Positions 153 through 35,076 of a stretch of DNA of 35,703 bases are shown piece after piece (the stretch's first letter is position 1; each line of letters opens with the position of its first letter). The translations under genes were made by a program, and so were the position numbers. This stretch comes from Candidatus Bathyarchaeota archaeon (lineage in GTDB: Archaea > Thermoproteota > Bathyarchaeia > Bathyarchaeales > SOJC01): contig JAOUKM010000013.1 of the NCBI GenBank assembly GCA_029882535.1, positions 1-35,703 on the forward strand, read 5' to 3'. The notes below the pieces were generated by a model. That model was not told the origin of the DNA and ran no database searches. It worked only from the letters and a program-made list of their open reading frames with translations.

Positions 153-701
153 CTAAGAAGACTCAGACAGATTCATCAGCTCGTCGCAACGAGTTCTAGT
201 AGCTTCGTAGACCATTCTTCGAAGTTCTTCTCCTGAGGCTTCCGTTTCTCGAATTATTCCCATTTTTTTCGCCAGTTCTTGGTCTCCTATGCTTTCAAGC
301 CACCGCTCAAAATCCTTTCGGGAAAAGTGGAATTCTACAGAGTTTATGTCGGCGGTTTTTATCTTTTCGCAAAAGTCTGGAAGGCTGTTGGCCTGCAAGC
401 CTAAGTATTGGTTGATTCCTACGTAGAAATAGAATGTTTTTTCGGGAGTCACTGGACTTAGGAGAGAGGCTGCTACTTCTTTGCTGACTTTGCGTTTCAG
501 AGTTTCTCTGGCGAGGTCAGTTACCTGGTAGTAGCCTTTTTCTGGCGAAGAAACGTATCCTGCTTTTTTTAGGCCAAGGATGTGCATCATGCATGAAGAA
601 AAGTTGAGTCCAACTTTTTTTGCTATGTCTTTAGGCTTTCTAGGCTGGCTTTCTTTAGCCATTATTTCCAAAATTGTTCTTTTGATAGGGTTCAAACGCA
701 T
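153..701 (-). CDS. Winged-helix protein with DUF5752-like C-terminal domain
   Basis: This 182-aa protein starts with a winged-helix DNA-binding domain (about residues 1-75: helices around IKRTILEIMAK and KPKDIAKKVGL, recognition-helix region with HILGLKKAGYV, wing near GYYQVTD). From about residue 85 it resembles the archaeal DUF5752 module, recognised by the FYFYVGI start and the SVEFHFSRKDFERWL segment. It is probably a transcriptional regulator whose C-terminal part senses something unknown. It ends convergently against the truncated gene at the window edge, and its upstream region (702-850) is AT-rich and shared with the divergent ferritin-like gene. The HTH assignment is firm; the DUF assignment is from memory of the family pattern. 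Confidence 0.75.
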   Translation of the reverse strand: MRLNPIKRTILEIMAKESQPRKPKDIAKKVGLNFSSCMMHILGLKKAGYVSSPEKGYYQVTDLARETLKRKVSKEVAASLLSPVTPEKTFYFYVGINQYLGLQANSLPDFCEKIKTADINSVEFHFSRKDFERWLESIGDQELAKKMGIIRETEASGEELRRMVYEATRTRCDELMNLSESS

Positions 702-907: not shown

Positions 908-1381
908 ATGCCAGAAGAAAATCTTGTAAAGCTCATTAGGGAGCAGATAAAAATAGAGAAGAATTTCGCCACAACCATCGATGAGCAGATAAAAAACATC
1001 CGTAACGTAGCAGCTAAGTTGTTGCTGTTGGAGACGCAGAAAGACTCTGAAAAACATGCTATGATTTTGGAAGGCATCTTGGATGTAATTAGTCAAAAGG
1101 ATGCTAAGCGACTCTGGGATACTTTGGTAGATAGTTATGTCGACCCGTTAGTCGTTAGAAGAAGTCTCGAAGACCACATCAAGACGGAAACAGCGATGCT
1201 TGAGCATGTGAAGAAGGAGATTAAAGAAACAGAAGATAAAGGCATAAAACTGCTGTTGGAGCACGTTGCAAGCGACGAAGAAAAACATCATAGGATACTG
1301 CAAACCGTTATAAAACACGTATACGATATCGAAACAATGCGCACGCGTGAACAAAGCATAGAAGATCAATCAAGAGGCTAA
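908..1381 (+). CDS. Ferritin-like (rubrerythrin-type) four-helix protein
   Basis: The 157-aa product is almost entirely helical. It carries paired acidic/histidine signatures typical of ferritin-like diiron proteins: an E followed by DSEKHA in the second helix (about residues 47-56) and SDEEKHH near residue 120, with E residues in helices 1 and 3. Proteins of this superfamily bind two metals in a helical bundle and act in oxidative-stress protection or iron handling; no rubredoxin domain is attached. The start is set by a good purine-rich ribosome-binding site. It stands alone, followed by the first recombinase 3'-end fragment, and the ferritin-like fold is clearer than the exact reaction. 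Confidence 0.75.
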   Translation: MPEENLVKLIREQIKIEKNFATTIDEQIKNIRNVAAKLLLLETQKDSEKHAMILEGILDVISQKDAKRLWDTLVDSYVDPLVVRRSLEDHIKTETAMLEHVKKEIKETEDKGIKLLLEHVASDEEKHHRILQTVIKHVYDIETMRTREQSIEDQSRG

Positions 1382-1501
1382 TGATAAGCACATTCTTTTT
1401 CCAATTGACTCTTAGTCAACATTCCAAGTTAACAGTAAACTAGTTGATATGCTGGCAGTCCTATTGTGTCTTTAGGAAACGTAAAAATCCTTAAAAAGTG
1501 C

Positions 1502-1510
1502 ATATAAATA
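1502..1510 (+). promoter_or_regulatory. Isolated TATA box without an intact gene
   Basis: ATATAAATA preceded by an A-rich BRE-like stretch (AAATCCTTAAAAAG) looks like a good archaeal promoter, yet the only thing downstream is the recombinase fragment at 1575. It may be the surviving promoter of a deleted gene. The rest of 1382-1574 shows no convincing coding sequence. Confidence 0.35.
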
Positions 1511-1574
1511 ACAACCACGTGATCGTAGAAAAGAAGGAATAGGCTTCCTTCAAACACACTTTTTTAGTCAGGAA

Positions 1575-1721
1575 ATGGGTAAGAAGTTTGTTCCAGACAG
1601 ATATATTGACATCTTTCAGGGAAGAGTACCAAGAAATGTATTAGCCAAACATTATACTCCGCAAGGAATTAAGATGTTGAAGGAAATCTATGATAAGGCA
1701 AACTTGAAAGTACTATCCTAA
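1575..1721 (+). pseudogene. Tyrosine recombinase C-terminal fragment, copy 1
   Basis: A 48-codon open frame encodes what looks like the end of an archaeal tyrosine recombinase: YIDIFQGRVPRNVLAKHY followed by a helix ending LKEIYDKANLKVLS. The HY in AKHYTP is in the right place to be the catalytic tyrosine. The catalytic Arg/His residues and the rest of the enzyme are missing, so this is a remnant. The same 25-residue tail recurs at 2341, and a related one at 3060, both on the same strand. Naming it a recombinase tail rests on family memory. Confidence 0.6.
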
Positions 1722-1756
1722 CGTTGTATAGAAAATCGGGATAGCTCTATACATGG

Positions 1757-2254
1757 TTAGAAACTGTTGAAGCCAAACATTTCTTCAAATGATTTCTTCT
1801 TTCTTGGTTTTGGCTGTTCAGCAGGATAACCAAGGGTTACCAGCGCAACAAATTTCCATTTATCAGGGATCTTCAGCAATTCTTTCACTTTTTCTTCGTT
1901 GCAAGCTCCTATCCAACATGAACCGATCCCTAAAGTCCACGCGGCAATAACAATGTTCTGCATTGCAATAGTGGCGTCAACAACAGCCCATTTTCCAGTC
2001 AAAAGCGATTTTACGTCTGCACACCCAACAATAGCGACGGGAGCATATTTGACAAAACGGTTAATCAAATTATCGCACAAGTTCTTTAGCATATCATGAT
2101 CATTCACAACGACGAAACGAATAGGCTGTCTATTGGCAGCAGAGGGAGCCTGTCTGCCAGCCTCAAGAATTTGCTTCAAAACCTCTTCAGGTATGTCTTT
2201 GTTTTCATAGCGTCTAATGCTCCTTCGGCTGAGAATCAGATCAAGAAGAGACAT
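1757..2254 (-). CDS. Nitroreductase-family FMN oxidoreductase
   Basis: The 165-aa protein has the hallmarks of the nitroreductase family: an N-terminal RRSIRRY phosphate-binding segment (about residues 10-16), QAPSAANRQP (35-44), a central AAWTLGIGSCWIGA stretch and a closing VTLGYPAEQP. Members bind FMN and reduce nitro or quinone compounds or flavins with NAD(P)H; the true substrate cannot be read from sequence. The length is slightly short for the family but both conserved ends are present, so it appears intact. It is oriented opposite to its neighbours and sits between recombinase fragments 1 and 2 as a single cargo gene. Confidence 0.9.
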   Translation of the reverse strand: MSLLDLILSRRSIRRYENKDIPEEVLKQILEAGRQAPSAANRQPIRFVVVNDHDMLKNLCDNLINRFVKYAPVAIVGCADVKSLLTGKWAVVDATIAMQNIVIAAWTLGIGSCWIGACNEEKVKELLKIPDKWKFVALVTLGYPAEQPKPRKKKSFEEMFGFNSF

Positions 2255-2340
2255 AAAACCTCATTCTTCCTAAACTCTTCTTTGTCTTTTCAGAAACAAC
2301 TCTTAAAAATGTTTGTGAGTAGGGCAGAGCTCCGAAAGGC

Positions 2341-2415
2341 GTTTTAGCCAAACACTATACACCTCAGGGAATCAAGATGTTGAAAGAAATTTACGATAAG
2401 GCGAATCTCAAGTAG
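2341..2415 (+). pseudogene. Tyrosine recombinase C-terminal fragment, copy 2
   Basis: The frame VLAKHYTPQGIKMLKEIYDK continues as ANLK and then a stop. It matches copy 1 residue for residue over 24 positions, while the DNA differs at about a dozen mainly third-codon positions. The copies therefore diverged while still under protein-level selection, which suggests separate parent integrase genes rather than one recent duplication. Similarity stops abruptly at 2341. Confidence 0.6.
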
Positions 2416-2476
2416 TGGGTGAGGGATAGTTAACTTTAATTCTTCTATTCTTCCAAGAAATGCATGGGGAGTACCT

Positions 2477-3013
2477 ATGAAAACTGGTTTGAGAAAGAGA
2501 GATGTTCTGCTCGTGCTACTATTTGTGCTTGCATTGATGATCTTAGTCTTAGCATATCTACTTGTTAGCAATCCTGCGAATCACGACACTTTTGTGCTCC
2601 CTTTCTCTGAGAGTGCTAAGAGGGAATTGAATCTGAAAACCGGTGAGCACGTTTCTATCTGGTTGTCTGCAATGCCCCCAAGAGTAAGCGGACGGAGCGG
2701 ACAAATGTGGGTGATCAACTTCTGTGTTATCGATCCCAGCAACCGAACAACGCTTGAACAGCGTGGAATCGCAGGTACAGGATGGCTTTACCCCATGTCG
2801 TTCGTGGCTCAGGAAGAAGGTACGTACACTATGAAATTCGAGAACACCATTGGTGGCAATTTTGACAAAACAATCCGTCTATCCTATAGGATAACCAATT
2901 CGATCGCCGGGATTCCCATTGAGCATTTCTTGATATTCATGATTGCGGCAACCTCTATAGGCATTCTCATATTGGCAGTCAATATGCTGATTGTAAGAGG
3001 CAGATCTAACTAG
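2477..3013 (+). CDS. GOLD/emp24-like bitopic membrane protein
   Basis: The 178-aa product has a transmembrane or signal-anchor segment at residues 8-32, an extracytoplasmic beta-rich region, and a second membrane helix at about 150-172 followed by a basic tail. The middle domain ends in the pattern EGTYTMKFENTIGGNFDKTI, which resembles the closing strands of GOLD (emp24/p24-like) domains. The protein at 34546-35046 has the same layout. A strong GGGGAG ribosome-binding site lies just before the ATG. GOLD domains mediate protein interactions in eukaryotic trafficking; their archaeal role is unknown, so function is not assigned. Confidence 0.65.
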   Translation: MKTGLRKRDVLLVLLFVLALMILVLAYLLVSNPANHDTFVLPFSESAKRELNLKTGEHVSIWLSAMPPRVSGRSGQMWVINFCVIDPSNRTTLEQRGIAGTGWLYPMSFVAQEEGTYTMKFENTIGGNFDKTIRLSYRITNSIAGIPIEHFLIFMIAATSIGILILAVNMLIVRGRSN

Positions 3014-3059
3014 AAATATCTACACGAACGAATTGGAGGATACAAGAGTGGCCAGTGAC

Positions 3060-3119
3060 ATGCTTAGAGGGTGACTCGAGGCGATATACAATAAGGCCAA
3101 ATTGAAGGTGTTAGGGCAG
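3060..3119 (+). pseudogene. Tyrosine recombinase C-terminal fragment, copy 3 (degenerate)
   Basis: After an in-frame TGA at 3072 the frame reads LEAIYNKAKLKVLG, aligning with LKEIYDKANLKVLS of copy 1. The stop codon and lack of upstream similarity mark it as a decayed remnant. It lies 46 bases after the GOLD-like gene, in the same relative position as copy 1 behind the ferritin-like gene. Confidence 0.45.
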
Positions 3120-3128
3120 GTATTTTGC

Positions 3129-3740
3129 CTAAAAAATTGAAGATACCCAATTCCACAGAGAAACTACTTTCTCAAGAGCAATTACAAATAAGCTGAACAC
3201 TGCAATTATCAACGCCCAACGCTCATAGAGTTCTTCCCACGTTTTTGCTTTGATGACACTTACGCTAGAACCGGGTTTGATATAGTCTTCAACACGTTTT
3301 CCATCATAAAAAAGAACCTTTCTAAGATTACCTTTCTCATCTTTTATTACATAGACTTCCTTGTCTGTGGGACTCTTACTAATAAAGACTAAACCAAAAC
3401 CATCTGACAATGCGTTGTAAGTGACACTAGGAGTATTGTAAGAGCCATTCTTTTTCAGAAGTGGCAATATAATCGTTTCCCCATCTAATTGGTTAGAAGG
3501 CCAGAGAATGTCATAATTGAAGTCTGCTCCTAGAAAATCCCTTCACTTATGTTTTGGATGTGGAACGATATTTCATAGGGTTCACCAGAAATGACAGATT
3601 TGAGAGGGATAAGTCTGAAAAGCTTAGCTTTAGACTTCAAAAAAATCTTAACAATTAGTCTATAGGATTCAGGACTACTCAAACTCCACCCTTCTTTAAC
3701 AACTCTACTATCTTCTGAAGCATCTAAAAGATTTGGGGAG
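3129..3740 (-). pseudogene. Frameshifted C-terminally anchored membrane protein
   Basis: Two overlapping minus-strand frames together make one plausible protein. The upstream frame (ending with a stop at 3530-3532) reads ISGEPYEISFHIQNISEGIF. The downstream frame, open from 3542, continues LGADFNYDILWPSNQ and runs to a membrane helix (AIIGVF-like segment WALIIAVFSLFVIAL) near the end. A one-base change in the GGG or TTTT run at 3533-3545 would join them. The upstream part looks like an extracellular beta domain. The start is unresolved because the frame runs into repeat A at 3741. It may be a real frameshift or a sequencing error. Confidence 0.55.
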
Positions 3741-3822
3741 TCCCTAGAAGAACAAGCCCGAAACCTAACACAAAAAAAGAGGGAAGTTGGAAGACTTAGG
3801 AAACGTAAATAAGCGATAACGC
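3741..3822. repeat. Direct repeat A (left copy)
   Basis: This 82-bp block recurs at 5483-5574 in the same orientation. Long exact stretches are shared, for example AAAAAAAGAGGGAAGTTGG and TTAGGAAACGTAAATAAGCG, with a few substitutions and a 10-base difference in the middle. The pair brackets 1.66 kb containing a 43-aa gene, a secreted-protein gene and three GC tracts. Confidence 0.85.
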
Positions 3823-3828
3823 ATGCAT

Positions 3829-3838
3829 GCGCGCGCAT
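3829..3838 (+). repeat. GCGCGCGCAT motif, copy 1
   Basis: Exact copy of a 10-mer found five times in this AT-rich window. Here it is part of a perfect 14-bp palindrome (CATGCGCGCGCATG, 3826-3839) directly after repeat A. Confidence 0.85.
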
Positions 3839-3861
3839 GTTAATCGTTTGGGGCTAGAATT

Positions 3862-3993
3862 CTATCCCCCAAAATCTAGTATCACAAAAAGGAAAAACCA
3901 AATAGCGGCACCAATAATTGCAACAAGTATTGGTAACCAAATAGCCCAATTCATTCTTCTTTGTTTTTCTTCTTCTTCATTTCTTGAACTCAT
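3862..3993 (-). CDS. Predicted 43-aa single-span membrane protein
   Basis: A short minus-strand ORF starts at ATG 3993 and encodes an acidic then basic head (SSRNEEEEKQRR) followed by one strongly hydrophobic segment (about residues 15-40) ending DFGG. A cytoplasmic charged head plus one transmembrane helix is a typical layout for small regulatory or structural membrane peptides. The upstream stretch 3994-4065 contains a TATA-like CTTAAATC. It is the only gene-like content between GC motifs 1 and 2. No family is recognised; the clean membrane topology argues for a real gene. Confidence 0.5.
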   Translation of the reverse strand: MSSRNEEEEKQRRMNWAIWLPILVAIIGAAIWFFLFVILDFGG

Positions 3994-4065
3994 CCCAATA
4001 CGCCACCAAGTCAATCTAAACCAGTCAAGATTTAAGCCTTACGTCATCATTTGCTTATCGTCTAA

Positions 4066-4075
4066 GCGCGCGCAT
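4066..4075 (+). repeat. GCGCGCGCAT motif, copy 2
   Basis: Exact copy of the 10-mer, 73 bases upstream of the 43-aa gene and downstream of the secreted-protein gene. It separates these two single-gene segments. The remaining sequence 4076-4241 has no coding signal. Confidence 0.85.
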
Positions 4076-4241
4076 AGCAATTTGTTACAATTCCCATGTT
4101 TGATATACTTGCGAAAAGGTTTTAAATTTGTAAAAGAAAAAAGTGTTGGTGTCTGTGTAGGGTTGATTCCTCGCTGTGTGATTTTAGCCAATTGACATAG
4201 ATATTAGGAGCAGAGAAGTAAAGGTCTGAGGCAAAAGGCGA

Positions 4242-5303
4242 TCATGTTGGAAATATCTGCAGCGTTTCTACGTATCTCCAGAACCTCCACGCCCTTGTAG
4301 GAATCCGCATGATTATTTTGATTGTGTCGCTTCCTTGAAATTGTGTTCCATCTCTAAGAGAGCCTGTTATTGTTAATGTTACTGTTCCGAACCTATCAGG
4401 CTGTCTACCTGTGAGAATTAACTCTATTACCGCTTGTCTATCGAATTTGACCATTAAATGCGTTGCTTGCTTAGTTTTATGCCCAGCTCTTGGTGAAACA
4501 GTGCCATTCAGTAGTATTGACGATATGTCGACATGTTGGTTTGTATATTCTGTTGGAAGTCTTAGGAAGGCGAGTATACACGTGCCTCTGCTTCTTAAGT
4601 TCAGAATAGATGGCGAGAATTTCGTGTCAACATTCACGACTTCTCTTTCCCAAACGTTAGTCTCCTTTATCACCACACCCGTGAACATGTATGTTACAAA
4701 CCCTTGCTCCAACTTGGTGATTTCTCTCTCGTCAATCCACTCGTCGCATATCCCGGTTGCTCTGTCCCAGTAAAGATGCATTTCAATGACCTGTTGAATG
4801 CTGCGATATGGAGAAGTCCAGTTGCTCTCTTGGCCCCAGTAATTTACCTTTCTTTCTGCCTCAGCATATCTACGTGTCAAAGTTGCGTTTATCACTGGTG
4901 AATGGGGTTCCTTGTAGATTGTATCTCCAGCGCTGAGGTTCGCAGCTATGAATAAAGTTGGAAATGAATGGCCGAGTGTGCTCGCGACGTCGGTCACCAT
5001 CCTCCAAGATGTTTCTGTTCCATTGTTGAAGCGGATTATGACTTGGAAGGTGATGTTTGTGCCTGATACCGATTCCACTTCTGCCTTATAGGATTCTATC
5101 TCTCTGGCTCCTAAAGGAGGTGGAGGTATGGGTGGATCAGGGTCGTTGGTTGTGTAGTTGACTGTAACATCATATGTTGCCCAATCACCAACTTCAACTC
5201 CAACCTCTCTTTGTTCTGCTAAAACTTCTTGAACGTCAAATGCCAATGCTAAGCCAGCAATCAAAATTAGAGTCAATATTGAAAATGAAGCAGATTTCTT
5301 CAT
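4242..5303 (-). CDS. Secreted or surface protein with signal peptide
   Basis: The 353-aa product begins with a classical signal peptide (MKKS then hydrophobic to about residue 22, possible cleavage near LALA-FD or VLA-EQ). The rest is beta-rich and contains EVGDWATYDV (about 37-46), a proline-rich loop, and seven or so N-x-S/T sequons, which suits an archaeal glycosylated surface protein. The order GVEVGDW... then IAANLSAGDTIY then YWDRATGICDEW is familiar from a large family of uncharacterised archaeal secreted proteins, which often end in a membrane anchor; none is seen here. It lies between GC motifs 2 and 3. Function unknown. Confidence 0.75.
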   Translation of the reverse strand: MKKSASFSILTLILIAGLALAFDVQEVLAEQREVGVEVGDWATYDVTVNYTTNDPDPPIPPPPLGAREIESYKAEVESVSGTNITFQVIIRFNNGTETSWRMVTDVASTLGHSFPTLFIAANLSAGDTIYKEPHSPVINATLTRRYAEAERKVNYWGQESNWTSPYRSIQQVIEMHLYWDRATGICDEWIDEREITKLEQGFVTYMFTGVVIKETNVWEREVVNVDTKFSPSILNLRSRGTCILAFLRLPTEYTNQHVDISSILLNGTVSPRAGHKTKQATHLMVKFDRQAVIELILTGRQPDRFGTVTLTITGSLRDGTQFQGSDTIKIIMRIPTRAWRFWRYVETLQIFPT

Positions 5304-5372
5304 TCTTTCTCCCTAAATTACAGTGCGGCTTGGAATCTATTATCTTTTTTGCTGTCTGAACTTTTTGGTGAT

Positions 5373-5420
5373 TTTTACAAAACTTTTACAAAAACTTTTA
5401 CAAATTACCATGCTTTTACA
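5373..5420 (-). promoter_or_regulatory. Phased TGTAAAA repeats upstream of the secreted-protein gene
   Basis: On the minus strand the heptamer TGTAAAA occurs four times (plus-strand TTTTACA at 5373, 5384, 5396 and 5414), 70-117 bases before the start of the secreted-protein gene. The first three are 11-12 bases apart, about one helical turn, as expected for cooperative binding of a regulator to one face of DNA. A further copy lies at 4129. AT-rich slippage is an alternative explanation. Confidence 0.4.
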
Positions 5421-5434
5421 TCATAAGCAACTTT

Positions 5435-5444
5435 GCGCGCGCAT
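5435..5444 (+). repeat. GCGCGCGCAT motif, copy 3
   Basis: Exact copy of the 10-mer, lying between the secreted-protein gene and the tRNA-like remnant. Its final T overlaps the TGG that would encode the CCA end of that remnant. Confidence 0.85.
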
Positions 5445-5468
5445 GGTGGATCGGTCGGATTTGAACCA
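5444..5468 (-). other. tRNA 3'-end-like remnant (T arm plus acceptor strand)
   Basis: The minus strand reads GGTTCAAATCCGACC then GATCCACCA, the typical T-loop plus 3' acceptor strand and CCA of an archaeal tRNA. The T stem would pair at four of five positions (one wobble), but no matching 5' acceptor strand, D arm or anticodon arm lies upstream, so it is not a functional tRNA. Archaeal integrases commonly target tRNA 3' ends, so this may be an old attachment site. Chance resemblance is possible. Confidence 0.35.
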
Positions 5469-5482
5469 GCGATTTTATGGAC

Positions 5483-5574
5483 TCCCTAGAAGAACAACCC
5501 CGAAGCTGCATAATCAACAACACAAAAAAAGAGGGAAGTTGGAAGCCTTAGGAAACGTAAATAAGCGATAACGC
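5483..5574. repeat. Direct repeat B (right copy)
   Basis: This 92-bp partner of repeat A (3741-3822) ends just upstream of the glycosyltransferase gene. Its last part (GGAAACGTAAATAAGCG) may contribute to that gene's promoter. If so, repeat B is the resident copy and repeat A the duplicate made when the 1.66-kb segment arrived. Confidence 0.85.
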
Positions 5575-5623: not shown

Positions 5624-6889
5624 ATGAGATTAGCTGTGATGGTTTATGAATATCCGCCCAAAATAGTTGGGGGTTTGGGCACGTATGCAGCAGAGATAAC
5701 AAGAAAGTTTGTTCTCTTAGAAAACGACGTGTCAGTGTTTACCATGAACGATGATAAAGGCGCCCTTCCCACTAGGGAGTTATGGCGTGGAATCGAAATT
5801 CACCGTCCCCTTCACATTGACGTCTCAGATTCTCTGCCAGACGTGATTGCAGAAGACGTTAGAAAATGGGGGCGGGGGATACAGTTCTTCTCCAAAATTC
5901 TCGTTTACAACTATCTCAGCGCTTCAAAAATAATTAACGAACTTGTCAAAAAAGAAGACTTCAAATATGATGTTCTAGTTGCGCATGACTGGCTTTCTGT
6001 AATTGCCGGCGTTACGGCGAAAAGAGAACTTGGACTGCCACTTGTTTTTCACGTTCATTCCACAGAGAAAGGGCGGACTTTGGGCAACGGATCAGAAGTC
6101 GTCAGCAGCATTGAACACCGTGGCGGACAGATGGCTGACTTGGTAATTACCGTTTCAAACGCGATGAAAGGCGAGTTGATCGAATTAGGGTTCCCAAAAG
6201 AGAAGATTAGGGTTTGCTACAATGGAGTTGACCCTGACAAGTATTCTCCCAAGCAGGTGGATGAGGCGAAGCTAAAGGAGATACGAGAAAGCTACGGGCT
6301 TAAAGATAAGGATGAGATGATACTTTTCATCGGGAGACTTGTGTGGATTAAAGGGGTTGACAAGCTTATTATGGCTATGCCCCATGTTTTACAGAAGGTT
6401 CCTAACGCGAAGCTTGTGATTGTTGGCTTAGGAGATATGGAGGAACACTTGAAAAGTATGGTTAAAGGTCTCAAGCTTGAAGATGCTGTGAAGTTTCGTT
6501 TTGAGTTTGTGTCTGAAGAAGAACGAATCGCCCATTATGCAGCCTGTGATTTAGCGGTCTTTCCCAGTCTTTATGAGCCTTTTGGAATTGTTGCGTTGGA
6601 AGCTATGAGTATGGAGAAGCCTGTTGTTGTGGGCGCCAGCGGAGTGAGTGGTATGAAAGAAATAATAATAGCTGATGGTTCTGAGCAATGTGGCTTCCAC
6701 ATTAATCCTAATGACCCGGTGGACATTGCTTGGGGAATTGCTAGTTGTCTTCAGAACCAGAACAGAAAGCAGATGTTTGGCAAAAATGGCAGAAAACGTG
6801 TTTTGGCAGAGTTCACTTGGGATGCTATAGCGAAGAAAACCTTAGACATCTATCGTGAAGTTGTTAAGGAAGAAGAGAAAAAAGATTAA
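5624..6889 (+). CDS. Glycogen/starch-synthase-like glycosyltransferase (GT4/GT5 fold)
   Basis: The 421-aa enzyme has a two-domain GT-B fold. The N-terminal signature YPPKIVGGLGTYA (residues 10-22) is the glycogen-synthase-type nucleotide-sugar entry loop, and the C-terminal half holds FIGRLVWIKGVD and the EPFGIVALE motif (E318 and E326) that binds the donor. Such enzymes move glucose from ADP- or UDP-glucose onto a growing glucan in the cytoplasm. The GalT-like gene follows after 27 bases in the same direction, which supports a role in storage-polysaccharide or sugar-nucleotide metabolism. The family is sure; glycogen synthase versus another GT4 acceptor is likely but not proven. Confidence 0.88.
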   Translation: MRLAVMVYEYPPKIVGGLGTYAAEITRKFVLLENDVSVFTMNDDKGALPTRELWRGIEIHRPLHIDVSDSLPDVIAEDVRKWGRGIQFFSKILVYNYLSASKIINELVKKEDFKYDVLVAHDWLSVIAGVTAKRELGLPLVFHVHSTEKGRTLGNGSEVVSSIEHRGGQMADLVITVSNAMKGELIELGFPKEKIRVCYNGVDPDKYSPKQVDEAKLKEIRESYGLKDKDEMILFIGRLVWIKGVDKLIMAMPHVLQKVPNAKLVIVGLGDMEEHLKSMVKGLKLEDAVKFRFEFVSEEERIAHYAACDLAVFPSLYEPFGIVALEAMSMEKPVVVGASGVSGMKEIIIADGSEQCGFHINPNDPVDIAWGIASCLQNQNRKQMFGKNGRKRVLAEFTWDAIAKKTLDIYREVVKEEEKKD

Positions 6890-34457: not shown

Positions 34458-34520
34458 AGCTTAGGGCCTTATGTTAAGACACAGTGGAGAGCTTTTCAAG
34501 ATATATTGCTTGGGAATTAA
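34458..34520 (+). pseudogene. 3'-end gene fragment R3
   Basis: The frame SLGPYVKTQWRAFQDILLGN and stop matches R1 (SLGPYVKTQWRDYRAGLLGE) in 14 of 20 residues. The similarity begins abruptly at 34458, in a 140-bp spacer between two minus-strand genes. Confidence 0.6.
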
Positions 34521-34545
34521 GAAAAATAATAGACTAGATTAGTCA

Positions 34546-35046
34546 CTATGTCCGCTTTTTAATCCATAGCCCTCTGGTGCTATAGATCAAGATAATCAAA
34601 CCTACAAACATCAGCGATAGGCCTAGAACTTCAAACCTGTTAATGCTAGGTTCGTATGGCGAAAGAAAGCTTGCATGTACAGTCTTTTTGCTGGCATATT
34701 CCTGATTGTCAAAATAAAAACTGTAGATCCCAGAATTTCCTGCTGTAAAACCGTGCCAAAGTCGGGTTTTCACAATTCCAGCATCGTAGATAATTGCTCC
34801 AGAAGGATTTTTTATGTAGAATTTTATCTCTTCGTTTCCACCGCTAACTGTGAATCCACCCTCAGTTCTGTCACCGTTTTCAAGGTACCATGATAGTTGA
34901 AGCACGTCTCCTCCTTCTACATCGTAGTCCCCTTTTCCTACAGTTCCTTTCATCCAAAAAAAAGTAAGATAAGCTCCTAAAACAATGATGATCAGCCCAG
35001 TAAACAACATGAAGCCTAAAGCAATTTTCTTCATAGTCAGCATCAT
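34546..35046 (-). CDS. GOLD/emp24-like bitopic membrane protein
   Basis: The 166-aa product has an N-terminal membrane segment (about residues 7-30), an extracytoplasmic beta domain and a second membrane helix (about 140-160) with a basic tail (KKRT). The domain has FYIKNPSGAIIYDAG and GIYSFYFDNQEYASKKTV, the latter very close to the GOLD-domain consensus of an FDN pair followed by a Ser-Lys-Val strand. It has the same layout as the protein at 2477-3013. The start may be the ATG five codons later. Function in archaea unknown. Confidence 0.75.
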   Translation of the reverse strand: MMLTMKKIALGFMLFTGLIIIVLGAYLTFFWMKGTVGKGDYDVEGGDVLQLSWYLENGDRTEGGFTVSGGNEEIKFYIKNPSGAIIYDAGIVKTRLWHGFTAGNSGIYSFYFDNQEYASKKTVHASFLSPYEPSINRFEVLGLSLMFVGLIILIYSTRGLWIKKRT

Positions 35047-35076
35047 TTTACATTATTCCACTATTATGATATGAAT

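Follow-up and report, generated by a model that had tools for sequence, protein, structure and literature searches.

The window, a stretch of 35,703 nucleotides, is contig 13 of the 1.73-Mb, 97% complete genome of a Candidatus Bathyarchaeota archaeon. In its left part, 3′-terminal remnants of integrase genes ('tails') alternate with cargo genes between resident genes, of which the last encodes a glycosyltransferase (GT). The features are:

156–701, reverse strand: resident gene with DUF5752 (Pfam, 3.5e-8) and HTH, the left locus marker; its orthologue adjoins ferritin/GT in relatives
908–1381, forward strand: resident ferritin/rubrerythrin-like gene (Rubrerythrin, 4.3e-5), with the GT gene as its neighbour in eight relatives
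1474–1487, no strand: left 14-bp copy of GT upstream sequence (TTAGGAAACGTAAA), the left edge of the insert; further copies near 3800 and 5550, a single copy in relatives
1557–1721, forward strand: tail 1, an integrase C-terminal end from residue ~216–220, catalytic Tyr codon included
1757–2254, reverse strand: nitroreductase cargo gene (PF00881, 2.9e-34), convergent with tail 1
2320–2415, forward strand: tail 2, starting at integrase residue 241, with no start codon and a stop after ANLK (E = 4.9e-14)
2477–3013, forward strand: cargo ORF for a membrane-anchored protein with no family assignment
~3060–3119, forward strand: tail 3 (weak), the last ~17 residues (A1 profile residues 257–272, E = 0.43)
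3129–3467, reverse strand: cargo remnant, a 112-aa membrane-protein ORF convergent with tail 3
3737–3822, no strand: internal copy of the GT upstream region, then an alternating GCATGCATGCGCGCGCATG motif (direct repeat with 5479–5574, 56 nt at 98%, blastn)
4242–5303, reverse strand: cargo ORF for a 353-aa secreted/membrane protein with no family assignment
5445–5485, reverse strand: tRNA 3′-end-like fragment (GGTTCAAATCCGACCGATCCACC), presumed relic of a far-end attachment site and sole T-loop-like signature in the insert
5479–5574, no strand: right-hand duplicate of the GT upstream region, marking the right edge of the insert (direct repeat and comparison with relatives)
5624–6889, forward strand: resident GT gene, the right locus marker (85–90% identity in most family relatives)

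The DUF5752, ferritin, GT and GalT genes are neighbours in relatives, where the gap of ~100–400 bp between ferritin and GT is free of tails. Ferritin adjoins GT in G012, G007, G009, G001, G003, G004, G011 and G002. It is therefore a resident, and the insert measures ~4.1 kb, from about 1488 to 5549. A sequence-only reading of this DNA had counted the ferritin-like gene as cargo, a view that its ancestral place next to GT in eight related genomes overturns. Nor do the tails belong to a single ancestral gene cluster, since the orthologous locus of the same eight genomes lacks them altogether. A different insert of 1.85 kb occupies the same ferritin–GT gap in G008 (L131, 2081–3932), which suggests an insertion-prone site. 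The duplication of the GT upstream region (3737–3822 and 5479–5574) leaves room for the segment 3800–5549, with the 353-aa gene, to be a separate second insertion or a tandem duplication.

The nitroreductase gene is 89.7% identical in DNA to a copy in a related genome (G011:C1:376468), and the homology stops at 2322, no more than 2 bp from where tail 2 begins; at the G011 locus, a run of Ns hides the other edge of the cassette. An integrase tail followed by a convergent nitroreductase gene occurs both in the window and in L189, in two families. The other three cargo ORFs (2477–3013, earlier called 'GOLD-like', 3129–3467 and 4242–5303) have no match in Pfam or PHROG. Rfam and tRNA scans of the window returned nothing, and the fragment at 5445–5485 matches no tRNA of its own genome or of 20 relatives. 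Far from the insert, the gene at 34458–35065 is 73% identical in DNA to L040 3418–3996, near lone tails of G007:C4; the copy in the window apparently contains stops.

Sequence comparison identifies the tails as the C-terminal ~30–54 codons of SSV-type ('suicidal') archaeal tyrosine integrases. The 48-aa ORF at 1575–1721 corresponds to the final part of PHROG integrase family 5127 (positions 306–345 of 355, E = 4.4e-6) and to the C-terminal residues of complete tyrosine integrases in relatives. In a profile search, residues 220–273 of the A1 profile are matched from ~1557 on, upstream of this ORF. The proposal that the tails are integrase 3′ ends is thus borne out by the PHROG match and by the full-length proteins. 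Tails had been placed at 1575, 2341 and 3060; the first two are real and begin at ~1557 and 2320, and the third is weak. Tail 3 is not significant genome-wide, being absent from the genome search at E ≤ 1, and it is plausible because of its location and strand. The protein encoded by tails 1 and 2 is the same over 24 codons, and the 14 of 72 nucleotides that differ are all synonymous (P ~6e-11 under random changes). Hence two parent integrase genes diverged while functional, in agreement with the earlier view of distinct, once-selected genes.

The same synonymous divergence (14 changes, one protein), together with the frame of tail 1, open over 48 codons, is what a complete small conserved protein with a function of its own would display. 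Such a protein, or an RNA gene, is a highly improbable explanation. The sequence in question ends full-length integrases, tail 2 lacks a start codon, and other copies carry frameshifts or stops; for an RNA gene, neither an Rfam match nor a folding signal was found. Among lone tails in general, most are frameshifted, interrupted by stops or devoid of a start codon. The tail is therefore no small conserved protein.

The full integrase behind the tail was sought and found intact in relatives. Full-length members (A1) combine the PF00589 and PF16795 domains. Their nearest solved structures are those of archaeal XerA and of the SSV1 integrase, and IntI4 gives a weak partial match. Tyr252, which lies in the tail, and Lys161 are invariant among them, so that both the archaeal phage integrase/tyrosine recombinase domain and the catalytic residues of the SSV type are present. 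SSV-type integrases have their attachment site at the 5′ end of the gene, where it overlaps a tRNA. A site at the 3′ end would therefore be an additional junction, and its enzyme is putative. The tRNA-derived site that splits the integrase gene is seen in relatives (L062, L044 and L168). In these loci and in L043, a tRNA 3′-end fragment stands just 5′ of int(C), and int(N) with the tRNA lies at the far end. Too little of the integrase end survives in the window to display such a site, and the tRNA-like fragment at 5445–5485 alone remains.

G028 contains a full-length pseudogene of the same subtype (L041), which is frameshifted and has a tail 88% identical to tail 1. In the genome under study, the only full-length copy lies on contig 30 (L053, 18229–19053). 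Two of its catalytic Arg are replaced by Lys (GLK, VLKK), which sets it apart from the orthologue in G012 (L057); judged by these replacements, the enzyme may be inactive. No int(N) fragment was found in this genome. Viral contigs contain no relatives of the integrase or of the tail, and among phage records only SSV viruses and two distant XerC-like proteins match.

Members of the tail profile occur in 65 of the 257 genomes of the class, and similar lone tails are spread across Bathyarchaeia and some Hadesarchaea. Against ~30 lone tails stand one or two body-only fragments, an excess of more than 10:1. It persists in searches with the closest relative's integrase body as query, and higher conservation of the tail could cause part of the bias. 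The lone tails form same-strand arrays of up to four, downstream of one complete integrase gene. Adjacent tails on a contig share the strand in 15 of 15 pairs, and a complete integrase, where present, is always the most upstream member; tandem integration alone would give the same-strand order too. In G119, contig 32 (L156/L205), a complete integrase precedes four lone tails. G118 (L187) also has four, the last of which abuts int(N) and a tRNA-Ala gene. In G107, G100 and G012, the integrase is followed by one or two tails, and in three Hadesarchaea by one tail at 150–170 bp. The intervals between tails usually hold one gene, and some hold at least two.

The main rival explanation of such arrays is serial capture followed by erosion. 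SSV-type elements would have integrated one after another, each splitting its own integrase, and become trapped; deletions would then have left useful genes and the 3′ ends of int(C), a dead end of this kind being protected because it abuts the next gene. This course of events is possible, though we lean against it. Gene capture by suicidal integrases is known (PMC8371274), and int(C) at one end with int(N) and tRNA at the other in L062, L044, L043 and L168 is what captured elements would leave. Lone tails are near the next gene and often convergent with it (19 of 29). Related relics are decaying, as seen from frameshifts in L058 and in C1 and C32 of the genome under study, and in L171 an apparent deletion has fused a tRNA site to residue 231. 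A rule that a lone tail always faces a convergent gene was dropped as weak, since complete integrases do so in 19 of 37 cases. An integrase of G009 (L134) truncated at residue 235 was likewise set aside, the truncation being an assembly gap of Ns.

Erosion also predicts attachment-site and int(N) relics between the tails, yet essentially none are found. T-loop signatures of tRNAs stand at the far ends of the arrays (window, L187, L188 and L168), and the single one between tails, in ~26 kb, is probably due to chance. Nor does erosion explain the survival of tails with almost no body pieces, or the position of their 5′ limits. In 24 of 31 well-preserved lone tails, the 5′ limit falls at residues 226–241 of 273, just before the catalytic tyrosine, and none begins before residue 199. 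The clustering is significant (p ~1e-6 against a uniform distribution in 199–245); the limits depend partly on where homology becomes visible, and several cases are sharp at the nucleotide level.

Comparisons between arrays place switches at the same codons, which erosion leaves unexplained as well. L188 and L190 are 91% identical in DNA up to the GRAP codons, beyond which the tails are ~77% alike and the downstream DNA is unrelated. L167 and L168 behave alike: in the two pairs, flanks with 91–92% identity extend to this point and are followed by another tail and other downstream DNA. In L205, the integrase and the next lone tail share a 43-bp core, and the flanks on both sides are of different types (98% in the core window, 39% in the rest of the tail). 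Lone tail L205b is a chimera, with a left part of the FQGRAP type and a right part of the FCGR/DYSPERM type, the latter being 95.6% identical to L189 over 68 bp. Other breakpoints differ: for L155 and L168 the break falls where a lone tail ends, on its 3′ side rather than at the 5′ edge, and that of L039/L040 lies ~45 bp further inside. Clearly raised core identity across differing types was seen in one consecutive pair only; most pairs lack it, as expected if the insertions are old.

Homologous recombination, either ordinary or assisted by the integrase, could produce such switches with no dedicated cassette site, by shuffling downstream DNA among conserved tails, because no DNA of the family is better conserved than the tail. 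The tail core is indeed the most similar DNA between arrays. The SSV-type integrase of pTN3 is reported to catalyse an exchange that resembles homologous recombination and for which 104 bp of identity can suffice, a length close to that of a tail (PMC8371274). As the sole process, recombination is nonetheless improbable: it gives no lone tails at new places, tails of the same array are often just 70–80% identical and thus poor substrates, and the crossover region spans only ~40 bp. Given this reported activity of an SSV-type integrase, the exchanging enzyme could be the integrase, in either mode, or a host enzyme.

The best explanation, to which we assign roughly an even chance, is that genes accrete as units of a tail and usually one gene where recombination occurs within the 3′ end of the integrase gene. 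The junction would comprise the codons around FQGRAPRxVLAKHY to the stop. A unit would recombine into this junction of a resident integrase gene, the frame of which would stay full with the incoming tail, and the older tail would be displaced downstream as a lone tail. Repetition would generate the order integrase–gene–tail–gene–tail, with all tails on the same strand. In the window, later loss of the integrase body would have reduced this order to tail 1–nitroreductase–tail 2–membrane protein–(tail 3). The insert would then be a decayed cassette-type array within a former SSV-type integrative element. Relics at array ends and not between tails, the junction switches, the 43-bp core pair and the L205b chimera favour insertion of tail-plus-gene units into one element over integration of whole elements. 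Intermediates in the form of circular cassettes are inferred, as is the sequence of the events; among the arrays compared, neither a circular cassette nor one array with and without a single insertion was found. The sequence-only reading had invoked repeated integration at a site overlapping the integrase 3′ end, with loss of the rest. Related genomes uphold a repeated accumulation of tails, which is polar, and a breakpoint inside the integrase 3′ end; loss on each occasion is only one reading, because tRNA-type relics stand at array ends, with essentially none between tails.

The observation thus holds and belongs to an arrangement that recurs in other genomes, and it is best filed under gene capture by SSV-type integrases, as a new variant. 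It shares with that process the PF16795/PF00589 recombinase, the tRNA-derived site in the 5′ part of the gene, the int(N)/int(C) split and the integrase fragments left by trapped elements. It differs in that the last 30–75 codons alone are found, in ordered arrays, usually with one gene between them and with junctions at the 3′ end of the gene. In the literature searched, including the available part of PMC8371274, we found no description of ordered tail arrays with such junctions. Tandem integration (accretion) at one tRNA gene likewise yields same-orientation copies beside a tRNA and modular exchange, but in the present arrays there are essentially no attachment-site copies between units and the integrase tail alone is repeated.

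Integrons, which have been reported in archaea (PMC9668308), offer another parallel. Like them, the present arrays are polar, consist mostly of single-gene units (here only putatively mobile), flank a tyrosine recombinase gene on one side and have a repeated sequence resembling a recombination site between genes. In contrast to integrons, the repeat is the coding end of the integrase itself and lacks an attC-like fold, the integrase reads towards the array, and the enzyme resembles SSV and XerA integrases, not IntI. DNA folding of ten tails gave z-scores of -1 to +1.1 and no special fold, and neither attC sites (folded imperfect palindromes) nor an IntI-type integrase, the hallmarks of integrons, are present. 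It is tempting to go further and propose that the integrase coding end is a site-specific recombination site for its own enzyme, in an integron-like capture native to Bathyarchaeia and Hadesarchaea, where each captured gene brings a copy of the tail and each insertion restores a complete, newly tailed enzyme. This stronger version is rather unlikely.

If accretion is true, the uncultured Bathyarchaeia, abundant in sediments, have a cassette-type route of their own for collecting single genes, independent of attC integrons. The genes collected would include those for nitroreductase, flavodoxin, shikimate kinase and surface proteins. Suicidal integrases would also gain a source of new C-terminal ends, because each insertion swaps the tail with the catalytic tyrosine. 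Even under erosion, tails are a sensitive marker of old captured elements missed by ordinary annotation.

Long alternating purine–pyrimidine GC motifs (GCGCGCGCA, ATGCGTACGCAT and GCATGCATGC) are found in the window at 3819–3840, 4066–4076, 5434–5445, 25941, 27347 and 28900, and also in L039, L040, L047, L059 and L060. Among the well-kept lone tails inspected, roughly half have such a motif no more than ~15 bp from the 5′ edge. In these genomes of ~42% GC, they recur about once per 2–3 kb, and GCGCGCGC occurs 39 times in 503 kb. A GCGCGC/GCATGC motif was considered as part of the system and rejected owing to this genome-wide frequency, so that it is likely a breakage-prone spot. Beside a tRNA-Val gene, the flanks of L040 14673 (G007:C4) and L047 1005 (G012:C41) are 96% identical, and 2.26 kb with genes for a TATA-binding-protein-like protein and an EngB-like GTPase (named by eye) are present in G007:C4 only, absent from the G012:C41 site. 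The breakpoint between these two genomes falls exactly at GCGCGCGCA, adjoining a lone tail.
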